From NCBI GenBank assembly GCA_004000515.1, contig CP034537.1, positions 5,222,001 to 5,286,000 of the forward strand: a stretch of 64,000 nucleotides of DNA, written 5' to 3'. Both the position numbers and the translations under genes were made by a program. Source of the stretch: Pseudomonas poae. GTDB lineage: Bacteria > Pseudomonadota > Gammaproteobacteria > Pseudomonadales > Pseudomonadaceae. The notes under the pieces were generated by a model, which worked only from the letters and a program-made list of their open reading frames with translations, made no database searches and was not told where the DNA came from. Shown here piece after piece: positions 40,541 to 42,796 of this stretch; position 1 is the first letter of the stretch, and every line of letters starts with the position of its first letter.

Positions 40541-41569
40541 TTAAACGTTTAACCCTGCACTGGCTGCGACTCTTTCAGCAACATGTCGCAAACTATCAAA
40601 GTTGATATTGGCACCGGAATTCACCGCTACCAGGGTCTGCCCATGAACACCTTCACGTGCCACGTACTTGCGAATGCCCGCTACCGCCAACGCGCCTGAG
40701 GGCTCGGTGATGGACCGCGTGTCGTCGTAGATCAGTTTGATGGCGCTGCACAGTTCGTCGTTGCTCACGGTCACCACTTCATCCACCCAGTCGCGGCAGA
40801 TTTCAAACCCATAGGCGCCGATCTGCGCGACTGCGGTGCCATCGGCAAACCCATCGACACTCGCCAACACCACGCGCTCGCCGGCGCGCATTGCCGCCAG
40901 CAGACAACTGGAGCCTTCGGGTTCGACACCGATGATGCGCACTTCGGGGCGCAGGTATTTGACGTAAGCGGCGATTCCCGCGATCAGCCCTCCGCCACCC
41001 ACCGGCACGAAGATCGCATCCAGTGGCCCCTGCTGTTGGCGCAGGATCTCCATGGCCACTGTGCCTTGGCCGGCGATTACGTCCGGGTCGTCGAAAGGCG
41101 ACACGAAGGTGCTCCCCGATGTCTGCGCCAGTTGCAATGCATGGGCCAGGGCAAACGGGAAACTCTCCCCGTGCAACACGGCTTCGGCGCCACGGGAACG
41201 CACACCCAATACCTTCAGTTCCGGAGTGCTGCACGGCATGACGATACGTGCCTTGATCCCCAATTCCCGCGCCGCCAGCGCCACGCCTTGGGCATGATTG
41301 CCCGCTGAGGCCGTGACCACGCCCCGGGCTTTTTCGGCATCACTGAGTTGCACCAGCTTGTTGTAGGCGCCGCGAATCTTGAAGGAAAACGTCGGTTGCA
41401 GGTCTTCACGCTTGAGCAGCAGCGTGTTGCCCAGCAAGGCCGACAACGCCGGCGCTGCTTGCAGGGGCGTGCGCACCGCCAGGTCATACACCGGCGCAGC
41501 AAGGATCTTTTTCACATAGTGTTCAAGCAGTTCCGTGCCGGCGGTTCGGGGCGTGGGACAGGTGCTCAT
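40541..41569 (-). CDS. Threonine dehydratase, short form without regulatory ACT domain
   Basis: A PLP enzyme of fold type II that deaminates threonine to 2-oxobutyrate. The PLP lysine is in FSFKIRGAYNK (near residue 64), followed by SAGNHAQGVA and the phosphate-binding loop VGGGGLIAG. The C-terminus SGANINFDSLRHVAERVA is exactly where biosynthetic IlvA would continue into its isoleucine-sensing ACT domains. Here the protein ends at 342 residues and no ACT sequence follows in any frame, so allosteric control by isoleucine is not expected. A leader peptide with Ile and Thr codons plus a terminator lie before it, so control seems to be by attenuation. The ATG at 41569 has AGGAGA seven to eight bases upstream. 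Confidence 0.88.
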   Translation of the reverse strand: MSTCPTPRTAGTELLEHYVKKILAAPVYDLAVRTPLQAAPALSALLGNTLLLKREDLQPTFSFKIRGAYNKLVQLSDAEKARGVVTASAGNHAQGVALAARELGIKARIVMPCSTPELKVLGVRSRGAEAVLHGESFPFALAHALQLAQTSGSTFVSPFDDPDVIAGQGTVAMEILRQQQGPLDAIFVPVGGGGLIAGIAAYVKYLRPEVRIIGVEPEGSSCLLAAMRAGERVVLASVDGFADGTAVAQIGAYGFEICRDWVDEVVTVSNDELCSAIKLIYDDTRSITEPSGALAVAGIRKYVAREGVHGQTLVAVNSGANINFDSLRHVAERVAASAGLNV

Positions 41570-41607: not shown

Positions 41608-41638
41608 GAAAAACAAAACCCGCCTCTAGGGCGGGTTT
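41608..41638 (-). terminator. Attenuator terminator in the threonine dehydratase leader
   Basis: On the minus strand AAACCCGCC (41638-41630), loop CTAGA, GGCGGGTTT (41624-41616), then TGTTTTT. A nine-pair stem with a U-rich tail, located 39 bases before the coding region, so it stops transcription before the structural gene. Its left arm can pair instead with GGCGGG at the end of the leader peptide. Confidence 0.85.
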
Positions 41639-41653
41639 GGGTGCAGCCGTGCG

Positions 41654-41719
41654 CTATCCCGCCAAATGAGGAATGGCGGTAATAATGCTCGGCTGGCTAC
41701 GGAATGCTTGAAATGTCAT
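41654..41719 (-). CDS. Leader peptide controlling the threonine dehydratase gene
   Basis: A 21-codon reading frame, MTFQAFRSQPSIITAIPHLAG, that includes the control run Ile-Ile-Thr-Ala-Ile (codons 12-16, 41686-41672). The segment CCGCCA within that run (41679-41674) can pair with TGGCGG (41664-41659), while GGCGGG (41663-41658) can pair with the left arm of the terminator. This is the classical 1:2, 2:3, 3:4 arrangement: a ribosome waiting at the Ile/Thr codons frees segment 2 to block the terminator. The ATG is about two or three bases after the predicted transcription start, so the peptide may be translated without a ribosome binding site. Seen directly; regulation is inferred. Confidence 0.75.
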   Translation of the reverse strand: MTFQAFRSQPSIITAIPHLAG

Positions 41720-41727
41720 GTCACGAA

Positions 41728-41755
41728 ATTAACCGGCGATTGACGGGCAAGTCAA
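41728..41755 (-). promoter_or_regulatory. Probable sigma-70 promoter of the attenuator and threonine dehydratase
   Basis: On the minus strand TTGACT (41755-41750), 16 bases, GTTAAT (41733-41728). The minus 35 box matches 5 of 6 and the minus 10 box 4 of 6 positions. Predicted start at about 41721, right at the leader-peptide ATG. Confidence 0.5.
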
Positions 41756-41841: not shown

Positions 41842-42042
41842 ATGGGCATCGTCAAGATCACCGACCAACTGCATGAACAATTGCGCCTGGCCAGCGCCAC
41901 GATGGACCGTTCCATCAACGCCCAGGCCGAATTCTGGATCAAGATCGGCCTGCTCGCGGAGCTGAACCCCAGCCTGCCCTACAACGAATTGATCAACAAA
42001 CTGTTGCTCGACAAACCCGACCTGATCCGGGGGCGCACCTGA
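41842..42042 (+). CDS. ParD-like antitoxin-type protein
   Basis: A 66-residue protein, MGIVKITDQLHEQLRLASAT then MDRSINAQAEFWIKIG. The short beta strand (IVKI) followed by two helices with S-I-N-AQAE-FW resembles the ribbon-helix-helix fold of ParD-like proteins. It was placed in that family from memory. Such proteins bind DNA and autoregulate. Its stop codon overlaps the map start by one base (TGATG), so the pair is coupled like a toxin-antitoxin operon, except that the partner is a methionine aminopeptidase. The ATG at 41842 was chosen over GTG at 41833. Confidence 0.75.
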   Translation: MGIVKITDQLHEQLRLASATMDRSINAQAEFWIKIGLLAELNPSLPYNELINKLLLDKPDLIRGRT

Positions 42043-42796
42043 TGATCAAGACTGCCGAACAACTCGCCGTGATGCGCGAATCCGGGCGCCTGCTCGCCCA
42101 AGTGTTCACCATGCTCGACGGTTTTGTGGCCGCCGGCCGCTCTACCCTGGAACTGGACAGCGCCGTCGAAGCCTTCATCCGCAATGACCTCAAGGCCCGC
42201 CCCGCCAGCCTGGGCCAGTATGACTACCCCTTCTCTATCAATACCTCGATCAACGAGGTGGTGTGCCACGGCATGCCCAGCGCGAAGGAAGTGCTGAAAG
42301 ACGGCGACATCATCAACATCGACATCACCCTGGAAAAGGCGGCTACATCGCCGACTCCAGCAAGATGTACATGATCGGCACCGTCGCGCCCAAGGCCCGT
42401 CGCCTGGTCGAGCAGACCTTCGAAGCGATGTGGGCCGGTATCCGACAGGTCAAGCCCGGCGCACGCCTGGGAGATATCGGCCATGCGATCCAGAGCCACG
42501 CGCAAGCCAATGGCTACAGTGTGGTGCGTGAATACTGCGGCCACGGCATCGGTCGGCAGATGCACGAGGAGCCCCAGGTGCTGCACTTCGGCCGGCCCGG
42601 TACCGGGTTGGAACTGCGCGAAGGCATGGTGTTTACCGTCGAACCGATGCTCAACCAAGGCAGTTCCAAGGTGCGCAGCTTGAAGGATGGCTGGACGGTC
42701 GTGACCAAGGACAACAGCCTGTCGGCGCAGTGGGAACATACCGTGGCGGTGACGGCGCAGGGTTTTGAGGTGCTGACGCTGCAAACCATAGCCTAA
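42042..42796 (+). CDS. map: Type I methionine aminopeptidase (second copy type), one frameshift
   Basis: Removes N-terminal methionine from new proteins. All five metal ligands are visible: Asp in IINIDIT, Asp in GYIADSSKMY, His in CGHGIGRQMH, Glu in FTVEPM and Glu in SAQWEHTVAV; the substrate-site His is in VVCHGMP. The A4 run at 42334-42337 is one base short; repaired length is 251 residues, normal for type I without an N-terminal extension. It is not next to rpsB as the housekeeping map is in many bacteria, so it is probably an accessory copy. It is cotranscribed with the ParD-like gene. A short REP follows its stop. Confidence 0.92.

Follow-up and report, generated by a model that had tools for sequence, protein, structure and literature searches.

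Pseudomonas RNA P9 as a probable isoleucine-responsive transcription attenuator of the threonine dehydratase gene ilvA2

The ilv, leu, trp and thr operons of enteric bacteria are preceded by leader-peptide attenuators, which combine 1:2, 2:3 and 3:4 pairings with an intrinsic terminator. The element analyzed here lies upstream of the threonine dehydratase gene ilvA2 in a 64-kb stretch of Pseudomonas poae DNA, the whole of which is referred to below as the window. Like the enteric attenuators, it has control codons positioned such that strand 2 would be released by a stalled ribosome; it differs from them in having Ile codons only, in preceding a single gene, in being probably leaderless and in scoring below the Rfam cut-offs for Thr_leader (RF00506; 17.1 bits, cut-off 55) and Trp_leader (18.4 bits, cut-off 41).

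Three further systems are comparable. In Sinorhizobium meliloti trpL, the 5' end of the RNA is the ATG of the leader ORF, and attenuation gives a small terminated RNA, rnTrpL (PMC7298713); our element probably shares the start at the ATG, but trpL carries Trp codons, precedes trpE(G) and belongs to the Alphaproteobacteria. In Pseudomonas aeruginosa, stalling on the PA5471.1 leader peptide activates PA5471 transcription by attenuation (PMC5348532), in answer to aminoglycosides, which are translation inhibitors, and not to one amino acid. Finally, for the Staphylococcus aureus ilv-leu attenuator the authors noted that the leader has three Ile codons and that mupirocin acts as an inducer (PMC5794164); both this leader and ours encode branched-chain leader peptides, but that of S. 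aureus is Leu-responsive in reporters, comes from a Firmicute and governs a whole operon.

Anatomy of the leader and its match to P9

The whole element occupies positions 41755-41606 of the minus strand and is followed by an IlvA-like gene. Its promoter comprises a -35 hexamer TTGACT (41755-41750), whose first base is the end that the initial annotation had given for the element, and, after a 17-nt spacer, a -10 hexamer TTAATT (41732-41727), or TAATTT when shifted by one base, which agrees with TATAAT at three of six positions and ends 7 (or 6) nt 5' of the leader ATG. This ATG, at 41719, opens a 21-codon frame (41719-41654; MTFQAFRSQPSIITAIPHLAG) that is probably translated from a leaderless message. 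The frame contains the control codons ATT ATT ACC GCC ATT (Ile-Ile-Thr-Ala-Ile; 41686-41672), assigned from the stall scan and codon counts given below, and passes through both strand 1 (CCGCCA, 41679-41674) and strand 2 (TGGCGGG, 41664-41658), as located by pairing analysis and folding. Strand 2 can pair either with strand 1 (CCGCCA with TGGCGG, 1:2) or with strand 3 (AAACCCGCC, 41638-41630), the GGCGGG of the former facing the CCCGCC of the latter (2:3). Strand 3 is also the 5' arm of a nine-pair terminator spanning 41638-41616, of which strand 4 (GGCGGGTTT, 41624-41616) forms the 3' arm; the hairpin is followed by TTTTGTTTTT, and the T tract of this intrinsic terminator covers 41618-41609. 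The regulated gene, an ilvA2-type threonine dehydratase gene of 342 codons (41569-40541, ATG at 41569), has its own AGGAG Shine-Dalgarno motif at 41580-41576.

The initial annotation had claimed a 21-codon peptide with Ile-Ile-Thr-Ala-Ile, a terminator behind it and the three pairings; all were located, and the coordinates were right. The 114-nt leader RNA folded at -43.0 kcal/mol, compared with -27.4 +/- 3.25 kcal/mol for shuffled sequences (z -4.8, 0/200 shuffles). A script found 11 terminator-like hairpins in the window (3 and 8 per strand), and only this one follows a small ORF in which Ile codons are adjacent. The attenuator observation is real and above chance.

The element is a full-length match (41689-41615 on the minus strand, model positions 1-74; 87.8 bits, gathering score 43) to Rfam family RF00624, 'Pseudomonas sRNA P9', which was the sole match at gathering score when the 64-kb window was scanned; neither T-box nor other Rfam leader families gave a match at that score. 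Rfam lists P9 as an sRNA gene (type 'Gene', not leader). Its consensus begins inside the leader peptide and so omits the AUG and the half nearer the promoter. The structure line of the model holds the 1:2 and terminator hairpins, with the antiterminator absent. P9 presumably comes from a 2006 survey of sRNAs in P. aeruginosa. The open-licence literature, covered mainly by titles and abstract openings, yielded no description of P9 as an attenuator or of an Ile attenuator in Pseudomonas; one paper names ilvA2 as a putative target of another sRNA (PMC5542712). The earlier statement that no described case was known for this gene in Pseudomonas thus holds, within that literature, for the attenuator and not for the RNA, which was already in Rfam as P9. 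Reading P9 as an attenuator is likely to be a correction of an sRNA annotation.

A ParD-like small gene (PF11903; 41833-42042, plus strand) is divergent from the ilvA2 leader. It is followed on the same strand by an M24-peptidase-like gene (42042-42796), the product of which we take to be methionine-aminopeptidase-like. This gene is apparently broken into two reading frames, one at 42042-42374 (PF00557) and the other at 42263-42796, and the split appears to be a frameshift or a sequencing error.

Conservation of the control codons, promoter and pairings

RF00624 is present in 109 of 149 Pseudomonas genomes (105 above the cut-off); family-wide, 71 of 148 genomes, from 8 of 19 genera, carry it (67 above the cut-off). 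Among the matches above 60 bits, each one that was read, a subset, has ilvA2 downstream on the same strand; matches of about 37-55 bits are related elements before other genes. One genome (G007, locus L117) seemed to carry P9 in tandem, with one copy lying past a run of N; this is an assembly join and was not counted as a duplication.

The leader set was drawn from 176 loci with an ilvA homologue, which gave 124 leaders, 111 distinct leader-to-terminator sequences and 90 peptides. The 52 loci without a leader comprise 41 from outside Pseudomonas (57-65% identity), 7 from Pseudomonas or Stutzerimonas (69-73% identity), which look like putative ilvA1 copies, 1 on a cut contig and 3 missed by the pattern (L117, L128 and L197); the leader is visible on reading in L117 and L128.

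The control codons proved to be kept in relatives, the Ile-Ile-Thr-Ala-Ile core persisting in the 111 distinct leaders with few substitutions. Ile occupies core codon 0 in 111/111, codon 1 in 106/111 and codon 4 in 110/111, and Thr (ACC) occupies codon 2 in 111/111, followed by GCC in 105; the substitutions are Met at codon 1 in five leaders, Val or Ser at codon 3 in six and Met at codon 4 in one. After the core, most leaders keep LAG, MAG or VAG and then stop. Ile makes up 17% of leader residues, with two to five per leader. The N-terminal half of the peptide varies among leaders (180, 140 and 183 changes at the three codon positions); since this half shows no coding signal by third-position excess in the 111 leaders, the peptide sequence itself is not conserved. 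Synonymous change is scarce as well, because the Ile codons are nearly always ATT (at codon 0, 110 ATT and one ATA). In one genus (L162, L164, L167, L168, L178, L242 and L244) the core reads ATG ATT ATG ACC, i.e. Met-Ile-Met-Thr: one Ile of the pair has become Met, and the stop codon, stems and promoter are kept.

The promoter is kept in the same place. The -10 element ends 6-9 nt 5' of the leader ATG in 107 of the 111 distinct leaders, and TTGAC occurs within the 60 nt upstream in every one of them, compared with 4.7% of shuffled upstream regions. By script, TTGAC lies 35-38 nt from the ATG in 105/111; for the remaining six, the script had picked an internal ATG in four and, in two, a second copy of TTGAC closer to the ATG, and the usual geometry can be read in each. 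A Shine-Dalgarno-like 4-mer is found near the leader ATG in only 6/111 leaders, as against 108/111 between terminator and ilvA2, a loose comparison because the latter stretch is longer (median 63 nt). As a control for circularity, 142 distinct sites were located by core and terminator alone, without using the ATG. A promoter (at least 7 of 12 positions) with an ATG within 24 nt was present at 129 of these sites, which are related by descent and thus not independent trials; the spacing was 6-9 nt in 126, and the promoter-placed ATG was in frame with the Ile core in 129/129. Nine sites have no such promoter, at least eight of them being elements before the kinase-a or SnoaL genes described below, and at the other four the scan had picked another promoter though the usual one is visible. 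The position of the -10 element immediately before the AUG and the rarity of Shine-Dalgarno-like motifs indicate that the ilvA2 leader mRNA is probably leaderless.

We analyzed the pairings on 36 diverse sequences, namely 26 ilvA2 leaders selected to share under 90% similarity, together with 10 related elements. Compensatory changes were evident in the 1:2 and terminator (3:4) helices, with 26 cells showing two-sided changes against 7.4 +/- 2.6 in shuffled controls (0/500), although many of them come from the related elements rather than from ilvA2 leaders and relatedness inflates the shuffle control. The same helices were paired in 90.0% of cells, compared with 36-53% when slid, bearing in mind that a structure taken from one sequence favors itself. 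By contrast, the 2:3 antiterminator was paired in 99.1% of cells and contained no two-sided change in the 36 sequences. In the related elements a G-C to A-U change in 1:2 (8 sequences) accompanies a C-G to U-G change in 2:3 (9 sequences), and in three of them, L206, L214 and L222, which precede kinase b, the terminator reads CCCACC..GGTGGG.

The placement of the codons relative to the pairings was examined with a stall model, in which a ribosome hiding 12 nt from the first base of its A-site codon was slid over every codon and the RNA was folded up to strand 3. For stalls at core codons 0 to 4 (I-I-T-A-I), the antiterminator was predicted in 110, 110, 111, 111 and 96 of the 111 leaders, respectively, and for stalls at any codon past the core in 0/111. 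Upstream stalls gave it in about half of the leaders or fewer (from 47/107 to 57/111 over codons -6 to -2), except at codon -1 (85/111), where Ile is present in 28. Free leader RNA forms 1:2 in 106/111 and 2:3 in five, and a ribosome at the stop codon is computed to hide all of strand 2 in 111/111. The attenuation model relies on the order of synthesis, because on average the terminator stretch folds at a lower energy (-16.1) than the antiterminator stretch does (-14.1).

Ile codons 0 and 1 fall outside the three core pairings. In the window fold, however, the UUAUU of these two codons lengthens the 1:2 helix by pairing with GAUAG at the stop, and every one of the 111 leaders has three to five of these five as standard pairs. 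On the 36 sequences this extension is paired in 77.8% of cells, with one pair unformed in 31/36 and no two-sided change. RNA pairing may thus explain part of the ATT constancy in ilvA2 leaders, a possible but weak explanation. The related elements do not share this limit on codon constancy.

Mechanism, signal and competing explanations

Taken together, the anatomy, conservation, pairings, codon placement and gene linkage established by sequence comparison make it very likely that P9 controls ilvA2 through ribosome-mediated transcription attenuation, with charged tRNA-Ile as the signal. Transcription would start at the leader AUG or no more than a few bases away, and the ribosome would therefore load on a leaderless message. 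When charged tRNA-Ile is ample, the ribosome would reach the stop codon and hide strand 2, allowing the 3:4 terminator to form. When it is scarce, a stall at the Ile codons would hide strand 1, 2:3 would form and RNA polymerase would enter ilvA2, the product of which would supply 2-oxobutyrate for Ile synthesis. If the leader were not translated, 1:2 and the terminator would form.

The initial annotation had proposed amino-acid attenuation responding to charged tRNA for both isoleucine and threonine. The attenuation part is well supported by comparison, as the 111 leaders keep the control codons, the three pairings and the distance at which these codons stand from strand 1; for the signal, Ile is likelier than Ile and Thr jointly. 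A response to threonine, alone or together with Ile, would agree with the invariable ACC at codon 2, which lies within the effective stall window, and with threonine being the substrate of the enzyme. However, ACC bears bases of strand 1 and together with the GCC that usually follows it constitutes strand 1 itself, so that pairing explains its constancy; in the related leaders its place is held mostly by Ile and once by Leu (before kinase b) or by Pro (before kinase a, L113-L115). Moreover, a switch answering to substrate shortage would turn the enzyme on without anything to work on. We consider a threonine signal very improbable. As judged from sequence, the kinase-b leaders keep the amino acid while the codon varies: over 22 loci, their Ile run is composed of 49 ATT, 39 ATC, 4 ACC and 1 CTC. 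The best independent sign of Ile sensing is the recurrence, behind such elements, of genes for Ile supply and for the charging of tRNA-Ile.

It could also be argued that P9 is what Rfam lists, a trans-acting sRNA with its own promoter and terminator, for which ilvA2 is incidental or just one target. Termination would indeed yield a separate RNA roughly 110 nt long, and the attenuator-derived rnTrpL of Sinorhizobium is reported to act in trans (PMC7298713). Yet the conserved parts are those that attenuation needs (the Ile codons, the three pairings and an AUG at the start), the other peptide-coding part varies, all RF00624 matches above 60 bits that were read precede ilvA2 on the same strand, and the related elements precede other Ile-linked genes. 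This makes a purely trans-acting role unlikely, though slightly less so than a threonine signal; the terminated P9 RNA may act in trans in addition. The least probable alternative dispenses with translation, the leader being a plain terminator between promoter and gene or a binding site for a tRNA or a protein. Its attraction lies in the strength of the terminator and T tract and in the want of a codon-position signal in the N-terminal half of the frame, but it leaves unexplained why the promoter-placed ATG is in frame with the Ile core at all 129 such sites and why mutually exclusive pairings are kept, and the Rfam scan provided no T-box or other leader family to support it.

The regulated gene and related elements in Pseudomonadales

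For the IlvA2 protein of the window, Pfam gives a PALP domain alone, without the C-terminal regulatory domain; the protein passes NCBIfam TIGR01124 (biosynthetic threonine ammonia-lyase), the match covering positions 2-319 of 499. The second copy in this genome, ilvA1, encodes 504 aa with the Thr_dehydrat_C regulatory domain. This domain is also found in the leader-bearing IlvA2 of P. faucium (L050, 519 aa), and has probably been lost in the lineage of the window. Among the 124 leader-bearing loci, 63 encode products of 400 aa or less (60 of 336-364 aa and three below 300 aa), 24 encode products of 516-519 aa and 37 run off the locus; the attenuator therefore accompanies both long and short IlvA2. 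In the lineage lacking the regulatory domain, attenuation may consequently be the main product control of IlvA2.

We also inspected 18 control ilvA copies (the best copy of each of 14 genomes without P9 and four further copies from P9 genomes). None of them is preceded by the P9 core or a GGCGGG terminator, and 17 lie beside rpiA. In the copies inspected, the paralogue ilvA1 showed nothing resembling P9. Like ilvA1, the best copy adjoins rpiA in 13 of the 14 P9-less genomes, which suggests that genomes of this kind are also without ilvA2 (14 of 40 such genomes checked).

Further related elements, in other families, were found with a model of the elements (R1) and then with a second model (R2). 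Counting chance hits, R2 yielded matches in 46 of the 390 genomes searched for the order and in 9 of the 229 searched for the class. Score alone cannot sort elements from terminators because some weak R1 hits (L210, L219, L223 and L224; 28.9-36.4 bits) look like real leaders. Reading showed many other weak hits to be ordinary terminators, and these were discarded (L119-L122, L124, L177, L179-L182, L217, L220, L221, L227, L228, L230-L232, L280-L284, L288, L290 and L291); L286 contains no open leader.

Several of the genes behind these elements concern Ile directly. Some are ilvA homologues of 41-45% identity (L213, L219 and L223; by reading also L275, L276, L287 and L289). The gene at L210 has citramalate synthase as its best NCBIfam match, below the cut-off, and a similar gene is seen by reading at L218. 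At L224, an isoleucyl-tRNA synthetase gene (ileS, above the NCBIfam cut-off) follows a leader with adjacent Ile codons and a terminator.

The others encode small proteins. SnoaL/DUF4440 genes stand behind Ile leaders in Pseudomonas and other Gammaproteobacteria (L112 and L173 by Pfam; L118, L123, L175, L225, L226, L233-L235, L278 and L279 by reading), the L112 protein being related to Bacillus subtilis YybH (2gxf). At L235 the SnoaL/DUF4440 gene is followed by that of an AAA_33-type P-loop kinase (kinase a), which elsewhere stands alone behind the leader (L111 and L113 by Pfam, L114-L116 by reading). Its assignment as a homoserine kinase homologue was rejected as too weak (26.8 bits, cut-off 197). 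At L176, what reads as a transposase-like frame separates the Ile leader from fragments of a SnoaL/DUF4440 gene and a kinase-a gene. The element of L285 is followed by a gene that, by reading, is GNAT-like.

A second P-loop kinase of about 174 aa (kinase b) occurs in many Pseudomonadales families behind leaders that mostly end in RIIIIP* or RIIIIIP* (L205-L209, L211, L212, L214-L216, L222, L248, L256, L258, L259, L261, L262, L264, L266, L272, L277 and L293). Among NCBIfam models, 'DNA topology modulation protein' comes nearest to the L208 protein, at 82.8 bits against a cut-off of 215, and a sequence search of solved structures returned no useful relative for the two kinases tried. Among 293 genomes, which we assumed to be part of the 390 covered by the order-wide R2 search, 24 have a kinase-b match at E <=1e-10, 16 of them close (E <=1e-37). 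An R2 site lies directly upstream of 14 of the 16 close copies; none is listed upstream of kinase b in G506, of the truncated copy in G461 or of the eight weak copies. At L292 (about 722-804), an apparent decayed kinase-b attenuator, without a start codon at the usual place, lies 2 kb upstream of the intact one; the gene that it precedes is, by reading, flavin-monooxygenase-like.

A tentative, rather unlikely extension is that P9 is one branch of a set of leaderless Ile-sensing attenuators spread over the order, forming a tRNA-Ile-charging regulon in Pseudomonadales that would cover Ile supply, ileS, the two P-loop kinase families, SnoaL/DUF4440 proteins and a GNAT-like protein, and would serve as an inducible response to natural IleRS inhibitors or Ile antimetabolites. 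The last element is suggested by the kinds of orphan small enzymes involved; that the orphan kinases and SnoaL proteins are induced by Ile starvation and play a protective role is our conjecture.

Reading P9 as an Ile attenuator provides a function for what had been catalogued among the sRNAs. It is also a caution that further short, terminated 'sRNAs' located 5' of biosynthetic genes may be attenuators. The same reading describes a threonine dehydratase that has no feedback-regulation domain yet would keep transcriptional feedback, and it makes available a compact system in which attenuation on leaderless leaders can be tested in Gammaproteobacteria. For the uncharacterised kinases and SnoaL-like proteins, the Ile leader is a regulatory tag that links them to the charging of tRNA-Ile and gives them a first testable function; if the regulon reading is true, these genes would be switched on by the very stall that IleRS inhibitors cause.
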